Source: an uncultured Rhodospirillales bacterium (GTDB lineage: Bacteria > Pseudomonadota > Alphaproteobacteria > Acetobacterales > Acetobacteraceae). Taken from it: DNA of 46,543 nt. A program made the translations under genes and the position numbers. Below the pieces are notes generated by a model, which did no database searches, was not told the DNA's origin, and was given only the letters and a program-made list of their open reading frames with translations. The DNA lies in the NCBI GenBank assembly GCA_945957135.1, contig CAMFLK010000005.1, positions 1 to 46,543 of the forward strand, in the 5' to 3' direction. The stretch's first letter is position 1; each line of letters begins with the position of its first letter. Shown in pieces: positions 33,701 to 46,543 of this stretch.

Positions 33701-35805
33701 CGCCCGACCCCGCGCCGCATTTCCTCGGCCGCCGCCGCCTGGGCCTGGATATCCGCGACGATTGGGGCCGCCTCATCGCCCCAGCCGACGGCGAAGCCAC
33801 GCTGTTGCGCCAGGGCGGCGACGAGGGCAGCTTCGTGCTGCCGGACATCCCCCAGCGCACGGTGACGCTGTTCACCCCGCCCACCCAGGTCGGCGCCGGC
33901 GGGGTGGCCAACATCCCGCTCGATATCCCCGACTTCAACGGCCAGATCCGCCTCATGGCCGTGGCCTGGCAGGGCAGCCGCATCGGTGCCGTCAACACCG
34001 ACGTCACCGTGCGCGACCCGATGATCGCCGAGGCGCTGCTGCCCCGCTTCCTCGCACCGGGAGACGAGGCGCGGCTCGCCGTGCTGCTGCACAATATCGA
34101 CCTGCCGGCCGGCGAGGCCGCCGTGCGCATCACCACCGAAGGCCCGCTCGCGCTCGGTGGACCGGACCGGCTGGTCGCCAACCTCGCCACCGGGGAACGC
34201 GCCCTGCCCGCCACCACGCTGCGCGCCACCGGCGCGGGGCGCGGGGTGATCCACCTCGCCATCACCGGGCCGGGCGGCTTCGCGCTGACCCGCGACAGCG
34301 CCATCACCATCCGCCCCGCCCGGGCGCCGCAGACCGTGGCCACCGGCAGCGAGATCGCCCCGGGCGCGGAAGTGCCGCTCGACCCGCTGATTGCCCGATT
34401 CATCCCCGGCACCTGGCGTGCCTCCGCCACCTTCGGCGCCCCCGTCCGCTTCGACGCCGCCGGGCTGGTGCGCGCCCTGGCCGACTACCCGCTCGGCTGC
34501 CTGGAACAGACCACCAGCCGCGGCCTGCCCCTCACCCTGCTGCCCGACGGCCCCGTGGCCGGCGACCAGCGCATGGCCCGGCTGCAAACCACCGTCGCCT
34601 CGGTGCTCGACCGCCAGCGCTACGACGGCGGCTTCGCGCTGTGGACCGCCAATGGCGAGGCCGAACCCTGGCTCTCCCCCTACGCCATGGAGTTCCTGCT
34701 GCGCGCCCGCGCCGCCGGCGCCGCCGTGCCGGACGCGGCGATCCAGGACGGCCTGAAATTCCTCGCCGACGGCGCCGGCAGCGAAGATGACGGCCCCCCC
34801 GCCCTCGCCGCCCAGGCCTACCGGCTCTACGTGCTGGCCTACGCCGGCCAGGGAATGCCCGGCATGGCCCGCGTGCTGGCCCAGCATCTCGACCGCCTGC
34901 CCACCCCGCTCGCCCGCGCCCAGATCGCCGCCGCCCTGGCGCTGGCCCACGACACGCCCCGCGCCGAAGCCGCCTTCGCCGCCGCCCTCGATGCCCCCGC
35001 CCGCAACTGGTGGTACCAGGATTACGGCACCGCGCTGCGCGACCAGGCCGCCATCGCCGTGCTGCTGAAGGAAAGCGGCCTGCTGCCCGACCGGCTCAAC
35101 CGGCTCGTCGCCACCCTGCCCGGCGCCGACCTCAAACCCGACTCCCTCAACACCCAGGAACAGGCCTGGACCGCCAGCGCCGCCGCCGTGCTCGGCCGCG
35201 GCGCGCCGCCCGCCCGCATCGCGCTGGACGGCACCGAACTCGTCTCCGCCCCCGCCCTGACCATCGCCCTCACCGGCCCGGCCCGCGCCCGCAACCTCGC
35301 CGACAAGCCCGTCTGGCAATCCGTCGCCGCCACCGGCGTGCCCACCGACCCGCTGCCCGCCCAGCGCGCGGGCATGCGCGTCACCCGCCAGTTCTTCGCG
35401 CTGGACGGCGGCAAGCTCGACCTCGACCATTTGCGCCAGAACACCGTCTTCATCCTGCTCCTCGAAGGCCGCAGCGAGGATGGCCAGCCCCACCGCGCCC
35501 AGCTTCTCCAGGGCCTGCCCGCCGGCTGGGAAATCGCCGGCCGCTTCGGCAGCGGCGCCGTGCCCGGCATGTCCTGGCTCGGCGAACTGACCGACACCGA
35601 AGCCCAACCCGCCGCCGACGACCGCTTCGCCGCCGTCCTGCCCCTCGGCGGCGACGCCAAGCCCGACTTCCGCCTCGCCGTCCGCCTCCGCGCGGTTACA
35701 CCCGGCTCCTACGAATTGCCCGGCGCCGACCTGTCCGACATGTACCGGCCGGCCGTGTTCGCCCGCCAAGGGGCCAATCGGGTCGTGGTTCTGCCGGCGG
35801 AATAG
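30712..35805 (+). CDS. Bacterial alpha-2-macroglobulin family protein with thioester motif
   Basis: About 1700 aa, signal peptide, MG-type repeats, FVWFDRGIYRPGETV, thioester motif GCLEQT, C-terminal DLSDMYRP; start trimmed from ORF track to MAVRILALLLGLLCW. Confidence 0.9.
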   Translation: MAVRILALLLGLLCWMPSPRAADLELPGLARDAHNYVTALTKRFPAGGTPAARRTAEQQAAAATQKKDWTAAANALEQRVALGDPTPAQLLDLARAQLARTPPDPQKALYAAWMNFDASDQGEAEIPALLVMADALRQLDRAGQAVDVLAAVVERAPDNAAYKRLLADAQRAVGVLVRRVRTEAEADPPRACIDFTVPPAKRDFTPGDWVRLDPPVPGAAVTREGDQICLSGLPSGQTSRVVLRAGLPGEMGLALVKETRLSIAMPNRAPRILFDTRMFVLPRGQTPAVNLTTVNLSAVSLKLIRMTERNIAALLRENRLGEAIETWTANSISENDGSVVWEGKAPVPKFEPNKALRTALPFPDALRNAGPGLYVLLVQAGDGTPGDAAAVQMILRTDLAPTIWRGSDGLTVQLRGYDDAKPRADVRLVLLARNNDILAEARTDAQGVARFPAPLLHGEGPMAPAALQAFAGEDFATLDLNAAAFDLSDRGVEGAPAPGPLDAFVWFDRGIYRPGETVQVMALLRDAAGLPADLPAQVTIRRPNGQVFQRATPPRTGDASLYLPVTLSAGAPAGTWVVELRADPAAAPIGRAEFRVDAFVPDRMAVEVGPAPAVLIPGQKAELPVVANFLYGAPGAELSGKATLQIVPDPAPFPALAGFRIGLAGETYAPDSIDIDLPETDAQGRSSLPILIPRAPDTTQALKALISLGVNDPSGHASRASATIPMRPAGPLIGIKPAFADNAVDAGAEAGFDIAAVAPEGNRIALKARLRLVRERPDWRMVTRGRLARYETVWRDEPLETQDIAIPADAPFHFAKKLDFGRYRIEVAQDGGMAVTSYRFRSGWAGSDSPDVPDRVDVSADRRAVPAGQSVRIHIAPPFAGEATLLVLTDRVISLRTIQVAAGGTDVDVPVEESWGPGAYVAVHAFRAGGGNRPGRAIGLTWVGVDPAARTLAVSFDVPDKIVPRARFTVPVKAPAGSWITLAAVDEGILRLTRFPSPDPAPHFLGRRRLGLDIRDDWGRLIAPADGEATLLRQGGDEGSFVLPDIPQRTVTLFTPPTQVGAGGVANIPLDIPDFNGQIRLMAVAWQGSRIGAVNTDVTVRDPMIAEALLPRFLAPGDEARLAVLLHNIDLPAGEAAVRITTEGPLALGGPDRLVANLATGERALPATTLRATGAGRGVIHLAITGPGGFALTRDSAITIRPARAPQTVATGSEIAPGAEVPLDPLIARFIPGTWRASATFGAPVRFDAAGLVRALADYPLGCLEQTTSRGLPLTLLPDGPVAGDQRMARLQTTVASVLDRQRYDGGFALWTANGEAEPWLSPYAMEFLLRARAAGAAVPDAAIQDGLKFLADGAGSEDDGPPALAAQAYRLYVLAYAGQGMPGMARVLAQHLDRLPTPLARAQIAAALALAHDTPRAEAAFAAALDAPARNWWYQDYGTALRDQAAIAVLLKESGLLPDRLNRLVATLPGADLKPDSLNTQEQAWTASAAAVLGRGAPPARIALDGTELVSAPALTIALTGPARARNLADKPVWQSVAATGVPTDPLPAQRAGMRVTRQFFALDGGKLDLDHLRQNTVFILLLEGRSEDGQPHRAQLLQGLPAGWEIAGRFGSGAVPGMSWLGELTDTEAQPAADDRFAAVLPLGGDAKPDFRLAVRLRAVTPGSYELPGADLSDMYRPAVFARQGANRVVVLPAE

Positions 35806-37505
35806 CGCGTGGGGGAAGGGAAGGAAGGCGGGGGCTCCGCCCCTTGATCCTCTTTAGCCGAACGGACGAATAAGGCGAGAGGATCGAGGTTGGCGGCGGT
35901 CGCGCCTTCGGGCGTGGGCTGGCCGACGCCCGCGGCATGGAGCAGGGCCATAAGTTCGCCGATGATCTCGATGCCGGGGGGACCGCCGTCGGGGTCAGGC
36001 GGTGAGATGATGACCCGGTCGATCAAGGCGCGGGCGGCTTCCAGGGCTTCGGGGTTGTCGCCCTCGGCCAGAGCGGCGCGGAGGTGGGCGATCTTCCTGG
36101 CATAGATATTGGCAATGCCCGGGTGCAGGGCGGGCGGCAGGACGGCGGGTTCCGCCTGCGCCACCTGGGTCACCTGAGTGGCCAGAGTGGCCTGCTGGGC
36201 TTCGAGGGCGTGGAGTTTGGCGAGGATGCTGGGGCTGGCCCGGCCATCGCTGATGGCATCCACGAGATTGCCGATCCTGCGTTCGACGGCGGCGAGCTCG
36301 CGCTGATGGGCCGCTGCCTGCGCGGAGAGGGTGGCGGCCAGGGTCTGCCATTCGGCGTTGAAGGCGGTGATGAATTCAGCGAGCAGGTCGGGCTGCATGA
36401 GCTGCCGCCCCAGGGCTTCCAGCACATGTGCCTCCACCACGCTGCGGCGGATGGTTCCGCTGTTGCGGCAGGTGCCGTGCTTGGCGGCTTTGCAGCCGAG
36501 ATAGTCCTGGCCGAGGATCGACAGGCCGCGCCCGCAGCAGCCGCAGAATGCCTTGCCAGTCAGGAGATGGGCGGGGCGCCGCTTTTCCCAGAAGGCGCCG
36601 GGCGAGCCCACCGGCGCACGCGTCGGGGCAGCCTCGGCGGCGAGACGGGCCTGCACCCGCTCCCATAGGTCGTCTTCGATGATCTTCAGGTGGGGCACAT
36701 CCGAGGTCACGATGGCGTTCTGCGCGCTGTAGCGGCGCACGGGCTGACCGGTCTCGGGGTCTTTGAGGCTGAACTGGCGATTCCACACCAGGCGTCCGTG
36801 GTAGGTCTCGTTGCGGAGCAGGCCGTCCTTGCGCAGCGGCCTGCCGCGGATGGAGGAGTCGTACCAAATCCCGCCACCCGGCCCAGGGATGCCCTCCTCG
36901 TTCAAGGAACGAGCGATACGGCGTGGGCTCTCACCATTCGCATAGGCATTGAAAATCCGGCGCACGACAATCGCCTTGTCCGGGTCGATGGCGCGCAGGC
37001 CGCGGTCCATCTCGCCGCTGTCCGAGACCCGGCGGACGGTGACATAGCCATAAGGCGGCAGGCCGATGCTGCGCCCCTTGCGGACCCTACCCTCCAGACC
37101 GCGGCGGGTCTTCTCGGCCAGTTCCTTAAGATACAGCGCGCCCATGGTACCTTTGAGGCCGACATGGAGCTGGCCGATCTCACCCTCCGCGAGGGTGACG
37201 ATGCGGACGCCATGGAAGACGCAGTGTTTATGAAACGAGGCAGTTTCTTCGAGGTCCCGGGAGAACCGATCGAGGCTTTCGGCCAGGATGATGTCGAAGC
37301 GGCCCGCACGGAGGCCCTGGAGGAGGGCCTGATAGCCCGGGCGCTGGCTGGTGGCGCCGGAGATGGCGTGATCGGTGAAGGTTTCCGCCACGGTCCAGCC
37401 TTCAGTGGCAGCCCGCGCCTGGCCAACCCGCAGTTGGTCCTCAATGGACGCGTCGCTCTGACGGTCCGAGGAATAGCGGGCATAGAGGGCAACGCGGAAG
37501 GTCAT
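35709..37505 (-). CDS. Large serine recombinase (resolvase + recombinase domain + zinc ribbon)
   Basis: ALYARYSSDRQSDASIEDQ catalytic Ser region, ESLDRFSRDLEE, recombinase domain, Zn ribbon CGCCGRG...GCKAAKHGTC; 3' end overlaps the A2M gene convergently by 97 bp. Confidence 0.92.
   Translation of the reverse strand: MTFRVALYARYSSDRQSDASIEDQLRVGQARAATEGWTVAETFTDHAISGATSQRPGYQALLQGLRAGRFDIILAESLDRFSRDLEETASFHKHCVFHGVRIVTLAEGEIGQLHVGLKGTMGALYLKELAEKTRRGLEGRVRKGRSIGLPPYGYVTVRRVSDSGEMDRGLRAIDPDKAIVVRRIFNAYANGESPRRIARSLNEEGIPGPGGGIWYDSSIRGRPLRKDGLLRNETYHGRLVWNRQFSLKDPETGQPVRRYSAQNAIVTSDVPHLKIIEDDLWERVQARLAAEAAPTRAPVGSPGAFWEKRRPAHLLTGKAFCGCCGRGLSILGQDYLGCKAAKHGTCRNSGTIRRSVVEAHVLEALGRQLMQPDLLAEFITAFNAEWQTLAATLSAQAAAHQRELAAVERRIGNLVDAISDGRASPSILAKLHALEAQQATLATQVTQVAQAEPAVLPPALHPGIANIYARKIAHLRAALAEGDNPEALEAARALIDRVIISPPDPDGGPPGIEIIGELMALLHAAGVGQPTPEGATAANLDPLALFVRSAKEDQGAEPPPSFPSPTRYSAGRTTTRLAPWRANTAGRYMSDRSAPGNS
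35831..35843 (+). terminator. GC-rich hairpin just downstream of the A2M gene (possible terminator)
   Basis: GGGGC-tcc-GCCCC followed by ttgatcctcttt 26 nt after the A2M stop. Confidence 0.4.
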
Positions 37506-37638
37506 GCGGACACCCGTTCACAGCAGGGATTGGAGGGAGAAGATTTCGTGTTCGCCGCCACCGAGGCAATGACATCGATATGTGCTGCGCGCTGCGGCAC
37601 GGGACGAGGACGGATAATGGGGGTGGAGCGCCCCAAGG

Positions 37639-38739
37639 CTACACTCCGCCCTGCCCGAACAGCCGTGTGGCCAGCAGGCGGGTGCGCTCACGGTCATCGG
37701 CGACGCTCTGGTTGATCCGCCGTGCCGCGAGATCATTCCGTGGCTGAGTGTACGCACGCTCGGCGACGGCGGGCGAGATGCCCAGAACGGCGGCCGAGAG
37801 CCCCGGGTTATCGGGCGCGTCATAGGCAAGAGCGGTGGCCAGTTCGTGCCGAAAGCGGTGCGACCCGAAGGCCTCACCGAAGGCCGTCCGGGACCGGCGG
37901 CGCATCATCGCCATGATGGCGGATGCCTGCATGGACCGTCCTCCAGGAACAACCCACAACGCGTCGTGATGGGCTCCGGCCAGCAGTTCCTGGCGCTCGA
38001 CCGCCAGGTAGCGCCGCAGCCACGGAGCCAGTTCCGGGGGCAGGGGGTATTCCAGCCGACGCCGGGTCTTGATATCGGCCGCGTCGAAGGACAGCCAGCA
38101 GTCGTCATTATCCGGCCCCAGCTTCAACTGCCGGCCGATGCGGATGGCGGCGAGACTGCGCAGGCGGGGCGCCCGAGATGCCAGGATCGCCACGATGAGC
38201 CCATCACGCAGCATCTGGCACCGCCGCTGGGCCGAGGCGTGCGCCTGGGACGCCTCCATCAACTTCACCGCCCACGTGTAAAGCGCCTGTATGCCGATCA
38301 GGCCTCGCGGCTTCGGGCTGGCGGGCAGCAGTTCGTGCAGGCTCCACTCGCCCGGCCGGGTGAGCCAGCCCGTGTCGGCATCGGGCTGCATGATCCGGAT
38401 CGCGCAAACGAGTTCCCAGAAACGTGCCCTGATGGTGTTGTTGGTATTCCCCGTCGCCCGCAGTTCGATCAGGAACAGGTCGGCGGCTTCCCGGTCGAGG
38501 CGGTCGGCCGGCGGGATGTTCGGGTCGAGCCGGTCGTGCTCGGCCAGAACCGCGAGCAGCCGGCCCCAGCCCCGCGCAGCGTTCCGCAGACTGACGGCGG
38601 CGAGCTTGGCTGCATGCGGGCGCCGGAAGCTGTCCGGGTCCCAAGTCGTGGCGCGCATCCACAACTCCCGGTCGATGGTGGGCCAATCCTCGAATTTGGT
38701 CACTATGGGTGTGGCGGCGGCCAACAGCTTGGTACCCAC
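37639..38739 (-). CDS. Tyrosine recombinase/integrase (second of pair)
   Basis: RAPRLRSLAAIRIG (Arg I), HRFRHELATALAY (HxxR), AERAYTQ (Tyr); GTG at 38739 lies 1 nt after the TGA of the upstream recombinase; the ORF also stays open to a TTG at 38796. Confidence 0.8.
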   Translation of the reverse strand: MGTKLLAAATPIVTKFEDWPTIDRELWMRATTWDPDSFRRPHAAKLAAVSLRNAARGWGRLLAVLAEHDRLDPNIPPADRLDREAADLFLIELRATGNTNNTIRARFWELVCAIRIMQPDADTGWLTRPGEWSLHELLPASPKPRGLIGIQALYTWAVKLMEASQAHASAQRRCQMLRDGLIVAILASRAPRLRSLAAIRIGRQLKLGPDNDDCWLSFDAADIKTRRRLEYPLPPELAPWLRRYLAVERQELLAGAHHDALWVVPGGRSMQASAIMAMMRRRSRTAFGEAFGSHRFRHELATALAYDAPDNPGLSAAVLGISPAVAERAYTQPRNDLAARRINQSVADDRERTRLLATRLFGQGGV

Positions 38740-38740
38740 G

Positions 38741-40633
38741 TCAATCCCCTGATGCCAGCTGACGCGAGGCCGGCTTGGACTTGCGGCGGCTACCAAAGGC
38801 GGTGCTGGCGGCAGGCTTCGTGCGGGCGCGATCCGTGAGGACGGAGCGGTTCACCTGGAGTGCCGCCGCGTTGGCCTCCAGCCCGGCATAGAACCTGATT
38901 GTGGTCTCGATCTTACGGTGCCCCAGGAGGCGCGAGACGGTGGCGTAGTGTCCGGGAAAGGCCCTGAGGTAGCGCACGACCGAGAAATGCCGGGCCAAGT
39001 GCAAATTGAAGAGAGCGCCGATCCGGCTTTCCACCAGCTTGGCCAGGGCGGTGCCGAACTCTGACTCGTCCCGGGCGTTCTGCCCCAAGCCGGGGAACAG
39101 GTGGGGGTTTCCCTCCTCCGCCAGCGACGGCCGCCAGATTTTCAGCCACGTCGCCAGCAGCTTGGCGGTGCTGTCGGCCAACTGCCACTCGAAGAACTCG
39201 CCATTCTTGGCATCGGCTCCGGCCACGCGCAGGGCAGTGATCCGCCCGCGCGGGTCGCGGACGAGGTCCAAGATGAGGTTGAGCTGGACCAAATTATGGC
39301 GCCGCAGCGGGCAGAAGGTCAGGATCTCGATCGCCACGGCGAACATGACCAGCCGCGCGGCTTTGGCCGGTGGTGGAGCGGTCGTGCCCGGCTGGGCCTT
39401 GGCTTTCGCCTGCTCCCAGAGTTTCTCCGCCTCGGCCATGAGGTGGCCAGGAAGGTGGAGCAGTCTGGCGTAAACCTCCGGCACGAGCAGAGCCTGGAGC
39501 CGCGCTTGGTTGACGTCGGTCATAGTCATCTGGCTGCGCGGGGCGATCATGCTGTGCACCTGCGCGATGTGGGCGACATGCGCGTCCGGGAGACGGCAGT
39601 GAAACTTCGCAACCTGGCGCAGTGTTTCGATGATCCCCAGCAGCTGAGACGGCCGGGTGGCAAGGTCCTCCCTGGCCTGCCGCTGTCGCCGGCGACGGTA
39701 GTGAAAATTCACGATCTTCTCGAAATTGGGGATCGGATCGACCAAATCGCGCAGCGAGGTGATCTCGCCGATCGGGATGCCTGACAGCACCAGCCCCGCA
39801 GCAGCGGCGCGTATCTGGTCGCGCCGGGTCTGCACAGTTCTGGGACGAGCCGCCTTGGGGCGGCTGCGCGGGCCGGTGCCGGACGTGGTGAAAACCTGGC
39901 CGGTGAAAAGCTTTTCCAGCGGATCGGCGGCGAGGCCGTCCAGAAACCTCCACGCGTCCTCCTGGAAAGAGGCGGGATACTCGTCCAACGGCAGGGTGAA
40001 CTGCTCCCGCATGTCCCGCCGTGCCAGCCGGACCTGCGGCCACCCCGGGACATGGTCCTTGGCCCAGTTCCAGCCCGAGGCGGTGGCCCGAACCATGCCG
40101 CCGATGTCGCGCTTGAGGATCCGGCCCGTGGCCCAGGCCTCGAAGTCATCGAGTGTCGCCGCGGTGACGGCCGAGGGGGCAATACTGTAGAGGCCACAGT
40201 ACCGAACGAAGGCCCCCACCCCCAGCCGCCTCTCCCTCGTAGGCAGCCGGGCAAGCAGAATCTCCCAGTTGGGAGAGAGCCGCGCCACCTTGGGGGCATG
40301 GAGGCCGAGGCGCATGAGTACGGCGCGGCACGCACTGACCAAGTTGTTGAAGCCGGCCGGGGAGTGGATGCCGAAACAGGCCGGCGCCCTTCTCCAGAGC
40401 GTGTGGTTCAACGCCTCACAGGTGAACCTGGGCTGACCCGCATCCTGTCTGCCAACCGCAGCCTGAATGGCCGCCGCCTTACGGACAGCACTAGCCAGCG
40501 CGGAACGGCGATCAGTGCGAAGGTCCGTCCAGCCCTCGATGGCCACCAACACCTCGGACGCGGTCGGTCCTTCCGAAGAGACCTGGGGTTCGCACGAAGC
40601 GGCGGAGAAAATGGCGTGATCGACGTCGTTCAT
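38741..40633 (-). CDS. Tyrosine recombinase/integrase (first of pair, long N-terminal region)
   Basis: CPLRRHNLVQL (Arg I), AKNGEFFEW (Lys), HLARHFSVV (HxxRH), LLGHRKIETTIRFYAG (GH...Y). Confidence 0.87.
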   Translation of the reverse strand: MNDVDHAIFSAASCEPQVSSEGPTASEVLVAIEGWTDLRTDRRSALASAVRKAAAIQAAVGRQDAGQPRFTCEALNHTLWRRAPACFGIHSPAGFNNLVSACRAVLMRLGLHAPKVARLSPNWEILLARLPTRERRLGVGAFVRYCGLYSIAPSAVTAATLDDFEAWATGRILKRDIGGMVRATASGWNWAKDHVPGWPQVRLARRDMREQFTLPLDEYPASFQEDAWRFLDGLAADPLEKLFTGQVFTTSGTGPRSRPKAARPRTVQTRRDQIRAAAAGLVLSGIPIGEITSLRDLVDPIPNFEKIVNFHYRRRRQRQAREDLATRPSQLLGIIETLRQVAKFHCRLPDAHVAHIAQVHSMIAPRSQMTMTDVNQARLQALLVPEVYARLLHLPGHLMAEAEKLWEQAKAKAQPGTTAPPPAKAARLVMFAVAIEILTFCPLRRHNLVQLNLILDLVRDPRGRITALRVAGADAKNGEFFEWQLADSTAKLLATWLKIWRPSLAEEGNPHLFPGLGQNARDESEFGTALAKLVESRIGALFNLHLARHFSVVRYLRAFPGHYATVSRLLGHRKIETTIRFYAGLEANAAALQVNRSVLTDRARTKPAASTAFGSRRKSKPASRQLASGD

Positions 40634-40776
40634 TGTATTATCTCCGGTTCGTATGGCGAAAAGCGGCGGAAAGCGGCGATTGGTGAGAGCATAGCACAGT
40701 CGACCTACCAGATTGACTTGGACACCTTCTCACATGACGTACGAATCCATCTGAATTGACTGATATTTCTGCGCCA

Positions 40777-41010
40777 TCACAGATCACCCATCAGCCTCAG
40801 TATTTCCTCCCGTCTGACATAAACACCCCGGCCGATACGGACGGTGTGGAGACGGCCGCTGGCACGCCATTCGCGGATGGTCCGAGGAGAGCGGTGGAAC
40901 AGCTGCGTGACATCCCCCAGGGTCAGCAGCGGCGGCAGACCGCCGACCGCGTCGGCGCCAGCCTCCACAGGCAGCGTGTCGGCATGCGCATGGTCTTCAG
41001 CGTCAGGCAT
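40777..41010 (-). CDS. Small helix-turn-helix protein, excisionase/HTH_17-like
   Basis: LLTLGDVTQLFHRSPRTIREWRASGRLHTVRIGRGVYVRREEILRLMGDL; ATG at 41010. Confidence 0.8.
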   Translation of the reverse strand: MPDAEDHAHADTLPVEAGADAVGGLPPLLTLGDVTQLFHRSPRTIREWRASGRLHTVRIGRGVYVRREEILRLMGDL

Positions 41011-41242
41011 CGGGTGTGGCTCCGAGAGAAGGATGCATGGGTGGGTCGGCAGCAGGGGCGGCTGCTGCCCGGGTGCTCCAGGCCTGCCGCGCCGCCTGCC
41101 GTGCCAGCGCCCGAACCAACTCAAAGAGGGAAGAGGAAGCTGCGGCCCGCGCATCCCCCTGCCCCTCAGAGCAAGCGTGCTCGCCAGCCACCGGAGCGGT
41201 AGCGACAGGCGGGTCGTTGGAATGGGCACGGGGCAGGCACAT
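41003..41242 (-). CDS. Small hypothetical protein encoded upstream of, and overlapping, the HTH gene
   Basis: MCLPRAHSNDPPVATAPVAG...SSSLFELVRALARQAARQAW...; TGA overlaps the start region of the HTH gene (ATGCCTGA). TTG 41290 is an alternative start. Confidence 0.4.
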   Translation of the reverse strand: MCLPRAHSNDPPVATAPVAGEHACSEGQGDARAAASSSLFELVRALARQAARQAWSTRAAAAPAADPPMHPSLGATPDA

Positions 41243-41404: not shown

Positions 41405-41432
41405 AAAAATCCCCCCGGCCGAAACCGGGGGG
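41405..41432 (-). terminator. Rho-independent terminator of the repressor gene
   Basis: Minus strand: CCCCCCGG-TTTCGG-CCGGGGGG followed by ATTTTT, directly downstream of the stop codon at 41441. Confidence 0.88.
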
Positions 41433-41440
41433 ATCGTTCA

Positions 41441-42253
41441 TTAGAAATTCGGCGGGGGCCGGGCCTGCCAAGCCGCGACAACGACGCCCAAGATAGCAAT
41501 CCGGCCATCGCCTGCGGAGGCGGTGGCGGTCGTCTGCCACGGCGCCGGCAGGGGCTGCTGGTGGTGCGGTGACGTGGAGAGCGGCCACAACCATGTCTCG
41601 CCCTCGTCGGTTGAGACTTCGCGTACGGTCACCTCGGTCCGGCCGGTATCATTGGTCCGGGCGATGACCACGATGCTGTCATCCGGCACGGAGGCATCTT
41701 TTTGCCGTGGCACAACGGTACAGACGAGGATGGACCCGGCGGGGAATACCAATTCCGCGCAGGGCGCCTTGACTCGGACACCGATCAGAGACAGCGCCGA
41801 TGGCGCCACATCGTCAGGCATCAGGATTCCGTCAGAGCTATCGGCCTTCTCGGCCGAATCCCGCCAAACGCCAGCTTGGGCGATGGCGGAGATTTGCACC
41901 CAGCGATAGCCAGCTGGAGGCTCGGCCGCAGCCGGAGATGTAGCCGCCTCGGAACAGTGCCCGAGAAGACCGTCTCGCGGCGCGTTGGGAAACGCCTCGA
42001 CGATGCGCTCGAGGACGGAAAGCGAGAGCGAGCGTGAATTCCCGCGCAGGAAGTTGTAGATGGTATTGGGCCGCGCTATGCCGATGGCCCGGGAGAGGCT
42101 GGCGGGACTGAGCCCGTTCCGCTTCATGAACCGGCGCAGGGCCTCCCGGCGAAGTTCCGCCCGCTCATCCTCGGCGATCCTGCCTTGGCGGGAAGGCAGA
42201 CGTGTTGAACTCGACGTGCCCCGGTCGGGGGCTCGTCTTTGGTCTTGGGTCAT
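41441..42253 (-). CDS. HTH plus S24/LexA-CI-like repressor
   Basis: N-terminal HTH (RRFMKRNGLSPASLSRAIGIARPNTIYNFLRG), C-terminal S24-like fold pattern (GVRVKAPCAELVFPAGSILVCTVVP...IVVIARTND...TVREV); start at ATG 42253, open to 42328. Confidence 0.78.
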   Translation of the reverse strand: MTQDQRRAPDRGTSSSTRLPSRQGRIAEDERAELRREALRRFMKRNGLSPASLSRAIGIARPNTIYNFLRGNSRSLSLSVLERIVEAFPNAPRDGLLGHCSEAATSPAAAEPPAGYRWVQISAIAQAGVWRDSAEKADSSDGILMPDDVAPSALSLIGVRVKAPCAELVFPAGSILVCTVVPRQKDASVPDDSIVVIARTNDTGRTEVTVREVSTDEGETWLWPLSTSPHHQQPLPAPWQTTATASAGDGRIAILGVVVAAWQARPPPNF

Positions 42254-43261
42254 GGAGATTGTCCTGAGAAGCCCGTCCCTCTCTTCAAGCCGCTTGCGTC
42301 GCGGCGGCAGGCTCGTCGAGCACACCACAGCTCTCGCGAATGATTGCGGTTGCCGTGGTCGCTGAAGGGAGGGGAGCGGGCAAAAGAACCTGCTTCAAAT
42401 AAATGGTAACGGATAAGAAAAAATCAACAATATTTAAAAATATACTTGAATATCAATCAAACAATGACCGCAAATCGGGATGAATTATTGCGCGGTAATA
42501 ACGGTATTTGTGAAGTTCATCGACCATGGAGAATACGGCGCCCTGTCATGGCGTCAGCGACCTGCAAGGAATGGGTACTCGCGCTGACCCCGGCCCCTCA
42601 CCACAGCACACTCGCCGGTTGGCTTTCAGTGTCCGGATCTGCTCCAGTTCGTCAAATGCCGTCGGGCCAAATATGGTTAGTAACGGTTAGTCGGCAGGAA
42701 GGAGCGATGAAAGAAGCTGCGTTGGGTGTACGTACCTGGAGGCTGAAGGTGGTTGGTGGGTTGGCTGGGGGGCTTGGAAGCTGCGATTGTAGTTCTTCTC
42801 TGTACAACCCTTCACCGCACCGTTGGAGGGGTTTCGGAGCTAGGCACAGCTGGCCAATCCCCGCCAGATCGGCTGGGTGGCTGCTGTCCTCTACGATCAG
42901 TCACCGCTCCGCCGGAGCCGGCCCCGTCGCTTTGGCCCCAATACCCGAAGAGCCGGGTATCGGAATCGCTCGCCACTTATCGAAGGCTGCTCCCGCCTCC
43001 GGCGACCTTGGGCTCCGAGCTTCCGCAGCGCCCTCAGGGTTTATGTCGCTATCCCACGGTACCCCAGCCAGGCCGCCGCGCCGCTGTCTTTTCCCGACCA
43101 CGGTGACCCGGCGCACCCTGGCTCAGCCGGGGCACGCATAGGTCCTTTATAAAAATGCCCCTGAGTCACGAGTCGGCGTTCGTGCATATCTGCCAACTCA
43201 TGGCGGCATGGATGGTCATGCCTGATACGAGAGACCGGCTGCCCCCTACCGCAGCGATAGC

Positions 43262-43480
43262 TCACTCTTCTTCGTCAGGCTGGAGCAAGGCCAAGTAAGT
43301 GACGCCCAGAGCTGTGGCCAACTCGTGAACCGTGACCAGGGTCGGGTTCCGCCGTCCCCGCTCCAGGCCGCTCAAATATTGCTGGCTAAAACCGGATAGG
43401 TCGGCGACCTGCTCCTGGGTCAAGCCCTGCGCTCGTCTCACCTTCGCAAAGTTGCGCCCCACCAGGCGCCGCATGTCCAT
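43262..43480 (-). CDS. XRE family helix-turn-helix regulator
   Basis: VGRNFAKVRRAQGLTQEQVADLSGFSQQYLSGLERGRRNPTLVTVHELATALGV. Confidence 0.9.
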   Translation of the reverse strand: MDMRRLVGRNFAKVRRAQGLTQEQVADLSGFSQQYLSGLERGRRNPTLVTVHELATALGVTYLALLQPDEEE

Positions 43481-43554: not shown

Positions 43555-45072
43555 GTGACCAAGCCAAGTCGATACCGACGGTCGTTTCTTGAGGGGATGC
43601 AGGACACTGCTTCCCAGATACGGGCCGGGGTGAAGCGCGCCGTCGGTGCGGAAGATCACATCCGGCTAGCGGTGACCGGGCTGAGCCGTGCGGGCAAAAC
43701 CGTGTTCATCACTTCCATGGTGCAGAACCTGCTCGCGCTTGGGCAGGGAATGAACACACTGCCGAAACTCGAACGGCGTCTCACCGAAAACGGGCAGTGC
43801 CGCCTGACGTCCGTGCAGGTGCTGCCGGCCGGCGCCGGCTTTCTCCCCCGGTTCGAGCAAGAGGCCAACTTTTTTGCCTTAGCTGCGGACACTCCCGCCT
43901 GGCCATCCCGGACTGATGATGTCGCCACACTGTCCCTGATGCTGGAGATCGTGCCGCGTTCCATCGTTGGGCGGAGGCTGGGCTCGCATCGCGTGCGGCT
44001 GGACATCCTCGATTACCCTGGCGAATGGCTCCTCGATCTCCCGATGGTTGAGCAAAGCTTTGCGGAGTGGTCTGCGGCCACGCTGGCCCTCCTGCGTACG
44101 CCTCCGCGCGACGCATGCGCCGCCCCGTTCATGCAGTTCATGACCGCGCTCAGGCCGACCGATCTTGCCGACGAGAATGTCGCGCGGAAGGGGCACGCAC
44201 TCTACCGAGACGCCCTGCATGCCTGCCGTGAACGGCACGGCCTGCGCTACCTTCAGCCCGGTCGATTTCTATGTCTGGGGCCTCGCAGCGAGGCGCCGTT
44301 TCTTTGGTTTTTCCCGTTGGAAGGTGCGGAAGATACCGATCGGCCCGACACTCTCGGCGCGCTGCTGCGCGATCGCTTCGAGGCCTATTGCGACGATATG
44401 CGTGTTAATTTCTTCGATTCCCTTTTTACCGAGTTCAACCGCCAGGTGATGCTGGTTGACGTGCTCGGCGCTCTGTGTGCGGGCCGCGAAGCTTTCGAGG
44501 ACACCGCCCGCGCGATCTTGGAAATCGCAGCCTCCTTGCGCTACGGAGAAAACACGTTCACCGGCCGAATGGGCGACTTGGCCGCTCAGGCGCTGCACGC
44601 CGGAAAGCAGATGCTTCTCCTGGGTGCTTCGGGAGATGAGCCCGCCAAGACAGGACCGCGCATCGAACGTGTGGCGGTGGTGGCCACGAAGGCCGACCAT
44701 GTTCCGGAAATCAAACGGGACAACCTGCGAAATCTCCTGCGCCACCTCGCCCAGCCGGTCGCCAGTTCAGCCGTGGGGGCAGGCGTCTCGTATCACGTCG
44801 CTTCCAGTCTTCGGGCGGCATCCGATGGGACTGCGAAGATCGGCGATCACCACGTGCCGGTTGTCCAGGGCATCAAGCTCGGCGAGAGCGTTGTGCGATC
44901 ATGCTATGTCGGCGAGGTTCCCTCGGGCGCGCCACCCGAAAGCTTCTGGGGCCAACCGTATTTCGAAATGCCGGTTTTCACGCCGCCAAGAATAGATGCG
45001 ACCGGCCGCTCCGGCATCCCACATCTCCATATGGATGACATCCTCGATGAACTGATCGGCGGTCTTCTGTGA
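43555..45072 (+). CDS. ycjX: YcjX family GTPase-like protein (DUF463)
   Basis: GLSRAGKTVFITSMVQNLL P-loop, LDILDYPGEWLLDLP, VAVVATKADHVP; GTG start with SD aggaggtg. Confidence 0.9.
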   Translation: MTKPSRYRRSFLEGMQDTASQIRAGVKRAVGAEDHIRLAVTGLSRAGKTVFITSMVQNLLALGQGMNTLPKLERRLTENGQCRLTSVQVLPAGAGFLPRFEQEANFFALAADTPAWPSRTDDVATLSLMLEIVPRSIVGRRLGSHRVRLDILDYPGEWLLDLPMVEQSFAEWSAATLALLRTPPRDACAAPFMQFMTALRPTDLADENVARKGHALYRDALHACRERHGLRYLQPGRFLCLGPRSEAPFLWFFPLEGAEDTDRPDTLGALLRDRFEAYCDDMRVNFFDSLFTEFNRQVMLVDVLGALCAGREAFEDTARAILEIAASLRYGENTFTGRMGDLAAQALHAGKQMLLLGASGDEPAKTGPRIERVAVVATKADHVPEIKRDNLRNLLRHLAQPVASSAVGAGVSYHVASSLRAASDGTAKIGDHHVPVVQGIKLGESVVRSCYVGEVPSGAPPESFWGQPYFEMPVFTPPRIDATGRSGIPHLHMDDILDELIGGLL

Positions 45073-46052
45073 GCGAGATTTCGCGCGGGTTCGTCGGTCC
45101 TGATGGACCGGAAGATGGCGGCGCTCCTCAGCAGCCTGCCGCCATTCCGAAGCCGGCCGAGGAAGCCGCGACGCTCCCCGTGTCCCGCACGCTCCTGGAG
45201 GCGGACCCGGATGCCGCCACATCCGTTGAAACGAGCTGGGCGCCGGAGCGGATTGCCGGAAGATCGGAAGGGGGCCGGACAGGGCTGTGGCTAGCCGTTG
45301 GAATGATGGCTCTGCTCTTCGGGTGGGTCACGCTATCCGTCACGTGGTTGGTCATCAGCCTGTGGCATCAATCCGGGTTGCTTGGCGGGCTCGCCCTTAT
45401 TCTGTTCCTTGCCGCGCTCGGCATGCTGACCTGGGGCGCGTATGGGGAGGTTCGGGCTTACCTTCGATTGCGGCAGGTTGATGAACTTCGGAGCCTGGTC
45501 GAGTCAAACGGTACAGGCGTCGCGCATGCGAAGAACGTGGCGCGGAGCTGGCTGAATGAGGTTCGGCTGGATTCTGCTCTGAGGGCGGATGCAGCCGTCG
45601 CACTGGCCTGTGCAGCAACTGCCGATGACGTCAGAGCTGTTCTCAGGAATCGCGTTCTCCCCCAATTGAAAGCGCAGGCCAAGACTATCGGCAGAAGGGC
45701 AGCGGCGGATGGAGCGGTGGCCGTGGCGCTCTGCCCTCACCCGGCATTGGATGGCATCATCGCGGCAGTCCGGGCGATCCTGATGATTCGGCAGGTAGCT
45801 GGGCTGTTTGGGCTGCGGCCCGGAATTGGCGTGACTCTTCTCCTTTTCAGACGGGTCGCCGGGATCGCTGCCAGCGTCGGCGGGGTCGATTTGCTTTCCC
45901 AGAGCCTCGCCGATGCCGTGCTTACAACGGAAATGCCGGTTCTGAAGCATGTCGTCCACGCCATTCCTGGCTCTGGCGTCGCTGCAATCAGGTTATACCG
46001 ACTGGCGGGCGTGACGGCCGAAGCGTGCTCGCCCGTGGCCAAACTTTCATAA
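45069..46052 (+). CDS. ycjF: YcjF family membrane protein (DUF697)
   Basis: Two TM helices after a Pro-rich N-terminus, FRRVAGIAASVGGVDLLSQSLADA C-terminal region; overlaps ycjX by 4 nt. Confidence 0.82.
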   Translation: MSEISRGFVGPDGPEDGGAPQQPAAIPKPAEEAATLPVSRTLLEADPDAATSVETSWAPERIAGRSEGGRTGLWLAVGMMALLFGWVTLSVTWLVISLWHQSGLLGGLALILFLAALGMLTWGAYGEVRAYLRLRQVDELRSLVESNGTGVAHAKNVARSWLNEVRLDSALRADAAVALACAATADDVRAVLRNRVLPQLKAQAKTIGRRAAADGAVAVALCPHPALDGIIAAVRAILMIRQVAGLFGLRPGIGVTLLLFRRVAGIAASVGGVDLLSQSLADAVLTTEMPVLKHVVHAIPGSGVAAIRLYRLAGVTAEACSPVAKLS

Positions 46053-46169: not shown

Positions 46170-46543
46170 TGGGCTGCTGCCGGTTCTGTGGACACCCATC
46201 TTAAGCTGACGCGGCCTTCCGTTCGAACTCCATAGGACTGAGATAGCCGATGGTCGAGTGGCGTCGTTGCGGGTTGTAGAACCGCTCGATGTAGTCGAAC
46301 ACGTCGGCCCGTGCCTGATCGCGGGTCCGATAGACCTTGCGGGCCGTGCGTTCGGTTTTCAGCGAGGAGAAGAAGCTCTCCATTGCGGCATTGTCCCAGA
46401 CGTTGCCGGATCGGCTCATGCTGCACGTCACGCCGTGATCGGCCATGAGCTTTTGGAATGGCTCGCTGCTGTATTGGCTGCCGCGGTCCGAGTGATGCAG
46501 CAGCGCATCCGGCTTGCCACGGCGCCAGATCGCCATCACCAGT
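46170..46543 (-). mobile_element. IS3-family insertion sequence, partial (cut by window end)
   Basis: OrfB transposase C-terminus plus candidate terminus TGGGCTGCTGCCGGTTCTGTGGACACCC at about 46170; exact IS end is inferred. Confidence 0.75.
46201..46543 (-). CDS. IS3 family transposase OrfB (rve integrase core), 5' part missing
   Basis: LLHHSDRGSQYSS...SRSGNVWDNAAMESFFSSLKTER...YIERFYNPQRRHSTIGYLSPMEFE (D and E of the DDE triad). Confidence 0.93.
   Translation of the reverse strand, partial: LVMAIWRRGKPDALLHHSDRGSQYSSEPFQKLMADHGVTCSMSRSGNVWDNAAMESFFSSLKTERTARKVYRTRDQARADVFDYIERFYNPQRRHSTIGYLSPMEFERKAASA

Follow-up and report, generated by a model that had tools for sequence, protein, structure and literature searches.

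A putative recombination module joining a large serine integrase to two tyrosine recombinases at the edge of alphaproteobacterial genomic islands

The locus described here raises the question of why two tyrosine recombinases and a large serine recombinase should stand in a single array, and whether they belong to one composite mobile element or were brought together by nested insertions. The window, which is an entire contig of 46,543 bases, carries on its minus strand, in 5′ to 3′ order, genes for a HTH_17 protein (HTH), a large tyrosine recombinase (TyrR1), a small tyrosine recombinase (TyrR2) and a large serine integrase (SerR). All four point leftward, and open reading frames, Pfam matches and family alignments confirmed each member of the array claimed in the original prediction. 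We propose that the array probably serves an integrative genomic island as its recombination module, in which SerR would carry out integration and the HTH-TyrR1-TyrR2 trio would form a second recombination system. The four genes are as follows.

40777-41010, minus strand: HTH_17 (MerR/excisionase-type) small DNA-binding protein, 77 aa; Pfam HTH_17, 4e-9
38741-40633, minus strand: TyrR1, large tyrosine recombinase, 630 aa; Pfam Phage_integrase, 0.002, below the cut-off
37639-38739, minus strand: TyrR2, small tyrosine recombinase, 366 aa; Pfam Phage_integrase, 4.8e-8
35709-37505, minus strand: SerR, large serine integrase, open reading frame of 598 aa; Pfam Resolvase, 6.6e-26, Recombinase, 6.1e-21, and Zn_ribbon_recom, 1.9e-8

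TyrR1 has a long N-terminal region without a known domain, and a PDB sequence search with it gave no meaningful match. Its catalytic residues, R444, K476, H545xxR548, H572 and Y582, make up the full R-K-HxxR-H-Y set that had been predicted; among 25 homologues no variation is seen at R, K, the second R or Y, and each histidine is at least 90% conserved. Alignment also bore out the expectation for TyrR2, which has R192, K224, H294xxR297 and Y330 but an isoleucine (LGI) at the usual His/Trp position, so that the tyrosine recombinase catalytic set (R, K, HxxR, H/W, Y) is complete in TyrR1 and lacks only the His/Trp in TyrR2. Because this position varies across the TyrR2 family (LGH, LGI, LNI, LGG, LRI), LGI is best read as a subfamily trait, not a local defect. 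Invariance or near-invariance of the catalytic residues, except at this third position of TyrR2, makes it likely that both proteins are active recombinases. The TyrR1 stop and the TyrR2 start are separated by 1 nt, as first noticed (TGA at 38743-38741, C, then GTG at 38739), and HTH, TyrR1 and TyrR2 are probably co-transcribed with SerR. The HTH coding sequence most likely spans 40777-41010, shorter than the mechanical open reading frame, and in relatives too an HTH gene lies upstream of TyrR1; the protein had been called excisionase-like, and the HTH assignment stands, while the excisionase part draws on weak matches to excisionase/BldC-like families (NCBIfam, PHROG). SerR carries the Ser motif (YARYSSDRQ) and Cys-rich Zn ribbon that had been claimed for it, the latter also recognised as a Pfam domain, and matches the phrog_95 integrase at 1.1e-93. 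Distant relatives of SerR are present in phages, where no relatives of TyrR1 were found.

The position of SerR within the element is apparent from the end of its reading frame, where two further features lie.

35836-35864 (approximate), minus strand: SerR-side attachment half-site GTTCGGCTAAAGAGGATCAAGGGGC, of the same type as at the SerR 3′ ends of relatives
35821-35843, minus strand: REP-like GC hairpin GGGGCGGAGCCCCCGCCTTCCTT at the SerR edge, the sole copy in the window

Likeness of SerR to its relatives stops near residue 560, and from about residue 555-560 the frame runs through the attachment site and then antisense to an alpha-2-macroglobulin-type gene whose stop codon ends at 35805, so that the tail of the 598-aa open reading frame is host sequence and the element-encoded part ends at ~35,826-35,844. 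The extent first given to the array, 35709-41242, therefore holds for its genes but not for its limits: the SerR tail belongs to the host, and the element continues well to the right of 41242 and runs off the contig end. The following features occupy that right-hand part.

41408-41435, minus strand: terminator-like hairpin, a consensus match only
41441-42328, minus strand: XRE/S24-type repressor-like gene, with relatives near other TyrR modules (L076, L091)
43262-43480, minus strand: small XRE regulator, resembling one in Roseomonas plasmids with a TyrR module
43555-46052, plus strand: YcjX (DUF463) GTPase and TIGR01620/DUF697 gene pair, from profile matches

SerR, TyrR2, TyrR1, HTH, the repressor-like gene and the small XRE gene thus form a leftward block between the plus-strand macroglobulin-type gene and the plus-strand YcjX/TIGR01620 pair. 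The terminator-like hairpin parts the four-gene array from the repressor-like gene, which is a probable element regulator. The YcjX/TIGR01620 pair does not adjoin the macroglobulin gene in relatives, a comparison that rules the two out as native neighbours, and it is probably cargo or part of the right-hand side of the island; DUF697-type genes also lie near the TyrR module in Roseomonas plasmids (L033:2243-3901; L034:721-1059). The right part of the contig has a lower GC content, and its end (46200-46543) reads as an IS3-type transposase gene within which the contig apparently breaks. An Rfam search of the region gave no match.

Only the SerR-side (left) edge of this element, at ~35.83 kb, is seen in the window, since the contig stops short of the other. 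Of six relatives examined, five have pbpC directly after the macroglobulin gene. In the window the hairpin and SerR follow it instead, and the pbpC of this genome lies on contig C167 behind moeA, NnrS and CopD-like genes (names from reading translations), so that the macroglobulin-pbpC junction is disrupted on the SerR side. The disruption may reflect one insertion, several, or a rearrangement, all compatible with the contigs. Upstream of pbpC on C167 is a SerR-type half-site without a SerR gene, GTTCGGTAAAGGCGTCTCCAGG (G000:C167, L073:3923-3948), with a REP-like copy nearby at 4118-4140 of L073; it may mark where another element, or a decayed one, borders the host DNA. The macroglobulin gene was also considered as an insertion gene common to the relatives and was ruled out, as they share only the REP-like hairpin.

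Comparison of SerR 3′ ends points to two classes of target. Outside the window's clade, the reading frame of nearly every SerR, whether TyrR is present or not, continues into a tRNA-Met(CAT) gene, with GGTTGCGGGG or a near variant at the junction. Since tRNA-Met is found at the 3′ ends of both TyrR-bearing and stand-alone SerRs, it is SerR, and not TyrR, that tracks the target site; loci with TyrR only are not located at tRNA-Met. The tRNA is followed by an apparent 5S rRNA in several loci, and tRNA-Ile and tRNA-Ala lie nearby in G772, which makes the initiator tRNA at the end of an rrn operon a likely target. SerR C-termini of the type SVKVVAGxGFEP (e.g., L162, L201) are antisense tRNA read-through and are likely to be annotation artefacts. 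Some genomes hold several SerR islands (L222 and L223 in G243, L142-L144 in G061), in part arranged serially at tRNA-Met with repeated GGTTGCGGGG cores, and one more distant SerR (L087:3393-5120) overlaps a tRNA-Glu(ctc) gene rather than tRNA-Met. In the window's clade the SerR 3′ end instead shows a half-site, GTTCGGxAAAGxxGG..., and after it a GC hairpin, AGGGGCxxxGCCCC. The window's hairpin, which is presumed to be target-derived, has 31 copies in the genome at ≤2 mismatches (0 for a reversed-pattern control), and hairpins in host genomes vary in step with those at SerR edges. These patterns suggest that the window's clade switched its target from a tRNA gene to a REP-like hairpin. We infer that SerR integrates the island and is active on these sites: a site of the element, at the 3′ end of the SerR gene itself, would recombine with a chromosomal site, which would be the 3′ end of the tRNA-Met(CAT) gene in most of the family and, in the clade of the window, a REP-like GC hairpin that follows a host gene.

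A relative allowed both ends of such an island to be placed. Locus L098 of genome G103 and locus L204 of genome G359 are 97% identical over the 3′ end of TyrR1, TyrR2 and SerR up to the hairpin, lose identity just past it, and have different host genes beside them. The G103 island, of 28.8 kb (about C26:266,875-295,688), carries the whole array, and in nine congeners that lack it both flanks are joined directly or nearly so. Its half-sites, GTTCGGAAAAGGAGGACTCAGGGGG and GTTCGGTACAGGGGG, face outward, and the far-end GTTCGGTACAGGGGG mirrors the SerR end. Element ends, which the original prediction had proposed to map by comparative genomics, are thereby located for this relative, and the boundary integrase, att site and island-free genomes expected of a large serine integrase island are all present. 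In G182, congeners retain the left host gene, and the right flank is absent from its contig; the G087 copies belong to a large duplication and were unusable for locating ends.

Recurrence of the same gene order elsewhere was another proposed check. Relatives of TyrR1 were found in 30 of 150 genomes of the family, and in nearly all loci with enough sequence TyrR2 follows directly (open reading frames mapped with profiles), with an HTH gene ahead of TyrR1 in many. Of some 28 family loci that could be assessed, about 12 have SerR immediately after TyrR2 and in the same orientation, usually no more than 150 nt away. Outside the family, TyrR1 occurs in 13 of ~380 genomes of the class, and among the 10 loci of other alphaproteobacterial families that were assessable, SerR adjoins TyrR2 in 6, both assessable-locus counts having been made by reading through tables; it is immediately downstream in G772, G634, G456, G590, G682 and G441, and ~0.9 kb away in G776. 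From the TyrR2 stop to SerR the spacing is 2-142 nt in most loci, with 4-nt overlaps in several. Order and orientation thus recur within the family and in other alphaproteobacterial families, the genes are not rarely adjacent elsewhere, and the possibility that they adjoin nowhere else is ruled out by these same-order loci. The genome_contigs scan found no relatives. In one locus (L085, G114:C15) the TyrR1 frame runs on into a SerR-like portion, which gives the locus the look of a TyrR2 deletion. The trio without SerR is found on plasmids of Roseomonas and Pukyongiella, adjoining ParA and a replication gene in the latter; from the Roseomonas relatives, the bacterium of the window is probably a member of the Acetobacteraceae. 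For G103, the window and their relatives, the DNA sequences thus establish the gene order, its recurrence, the place of SerR at the boundary, two classes of target site and one complete island.

The islands that carry the module appear to be rich in defence genes, at least among those sampled. The G103 cargo includes SIR2-like, DpdF-like helicase-HNH, DUF5131 and PDC-M41A-type candidates, together with genes without a defence link. Among other module loci, that of G334 contains a type IIG restriction enzyme as well as a dynamin-like gene, that of G359 a DNA methylase together with a UvrD/PDDEXK pair, and that of G772 a ResIII/PLD gene ~11 kb upstream. Directly upstream of HTH-TyrR1-TyrR2 in G776 (L248:1370-6787) are the C-terminal part of the BREX protein PglX, PglZ and BrxL. 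Judged by these sequences, the module is a recurrent occupant of the edge of alphaproteobacterial mobile DNA islands, many of them defence-laden.

How the two kinds of recombinase came together can be approached through their phylogenies, bearing in mind that both trees are quick searches in which gain and loss are indistinguishable. In a tree of 56 SerRs, TyrR2-adjacent members fall in several clusters amid stand-alone relatives; the window's cluster is TyrR2-adjacent wherever context is available, and in a larger sample, where 12 loci of this REP-target clade have upstream DNA, all but L218 keep TyrR2 adjacent (11 of 12). On the TyrR1+TyrR2 tree, SerR presence is scattered like shuffled labels (11 changes, vs ~12 expected), and the TyrR partners of SerR clusters lie on distant branches. 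The conflict between the trees implies that partners have been re-paired repeatedly in a fixed geometry. As SerR and TyrR each also occur without the other, we regard the array as a repeatedly assembled partnership and not an inseparable machine.

Incongruent trees are also what would be expected if the array arose by nested insertions, with an independent, Tn554/GInt-like HTH-TyrR1-TyrR2 element landing repeatedly at a preferred spot beside SerR and no cooperation between them. The trio does occur alone on plasmids and chromosomes (e.g., L033-L035, L037, L254, L255), and the DNA common to L035 and L097 is almost exactly the trio. However, strand and order are the same in nearly every case across many families, with near-zero spacing and 4-nt stop/start overlaps, no second TyrR site copy or end repeat was seen beside SerR, and the REP-target clade retains TyrR2 as described above. 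We consider nesting without cooperation unlikely. Recurrent order and orientation, near-zero spacing and a G103 island with both ends favour a composite element, one of the two origins originally offered, over chance nesting. It is quite improbable that the island owes its mobility to the tyrosine pair, with SerR as cargo or a resolvase: TyrR1 and TyrR2 retain catalytic residues, and the two-tyrosine Tn554 and SE elements move by themselves (PMC10214605), but boundary and target follow SerR, also in many TyrR-free islands, and TyrR-only loci lie away from tRNA-Met.

What the trio would do in a composite element may be indicated by an additional feature.

40683-40733, minus strand: imperfect inverted repeat GTGAGAAGG..TCTGGTAG..GCTCTCAC between HTH and TyrR1, weak in the window

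Such a repeat is found between HTH and TyrR1 in several loci, clearly above shuffles in L093, L206 and L250/L251, and its centre, T(T/C)TGGTA, is common to five loci, against 0.006 expected per 300 nt. We regard it as a candidate TyrR core site or operator. A second copy of the candidate site was searched for and none was found, a result better matched by an operator or an internal site for resolution than by an integration end. Its location, where a promoter or operator would be expected, accords with an arrangement in which the trio regulates SerR, the HTH and tyrosine recombinase folds binding near a promoter or att site to control directionality or expression, and the usual His is absent from TyrR2 in the window's branch. 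In both proteins, however, R, K, HxxR and Tyr are invariant or nearly so over deep divergence, which argues for selection on catalysis and leaves a purely regulatory trio rather unlikely. Our best guess for the co-located, site-specific tyrosine system, and the least certain part of this account, is that it would act on the internal repeat, possibly to separate multimers or tandem arrays of the island in its circular or integrated form, and that HTH would serve as an architectural or regulatory partner. A fuller scheme, in which both the choice of target and the integration of the defence island fall to SerR, the trio controls its circular form or tandem arrays, and normal mobility needs both chemistries, is offered tentatively, as one we would not yet expect to hold.

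Recombinase-bearing islands are usually sorted by one chemistry, and a recurring module of a serine integrase and a two-gene tyrosine system departs from that scheme. The module would represent a distinct integration toolkit of alphaproteobacterial defence islands, in which partners are exchanged while position and orientation are kept, and its targets, tRNA-Met genes and REP-like hairpins, are conserved or multi-copy. It permits a direct genetic test of cooperation between two recombination chemistries, and the SerR-TyrR2 junction with its half-site is a marker for finding defence islands.

Published descriptions of the Tn554, SE, GInt, RIT and BIM elements involve tyrosine recombinases alone (PMC3414803, PMC9345347, PMC10214605, PMC5385486), in agreement with the original prediction, and a review lists elements with a single serine integrase or with tyrosine duos (PMC5704250). 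A search of open-licence PMC papers, which is not proof of novelty, found no TyrR pair joined to a serine integrase with tRNA-Met or REP-like targets. Compared by gene layout, the module resembles Tn554-related elements (TnpA, TnpB, TnpC) in its tandem of one large (~630 aa) and one ordinary (~360 aa) tyrosine recombinase. In Tn554, however, the small recombinase precedes the large one and TnpC follows, whereas here the order is large, small, then SerR, with a leading HTH_17 gene, a trailing serine integrase and no TnpC-like gene seen. SE elements and GInts, described mainly from Gamma- and Betaproteobacteria, likewise have, at one end of an island of variable cargo, an operon of several tyrosine recombinase genes together with one for a small accessory protein (PMC9345347, PMC10214605, PMC5385486). 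Their products are two catalytic tyrosine recombinases, a third protein of tyrosine fold and Srap/GinD, and no serine recombinase, in contrast to two tyrosine recombinases, HTH and SerR. RIT elements, common in alpha- and betaproteobacteria, share adjacent and sometimes overlapping tyrosine recombinase genes, but have three of them, no HTH leader and no serine integrase. The clearest kin of SerR are single large serine integrase islands and prophages of the phrog_95 type, with which it shares the Resolvase, Recombinase and Zn-ribbon domains, a place at the edge and short half-sites. There the serine integrase is normally the sole recombinase described, whereas in the module two unrelated recombination chemistries, as predicted from the encoded proteins, travel together.
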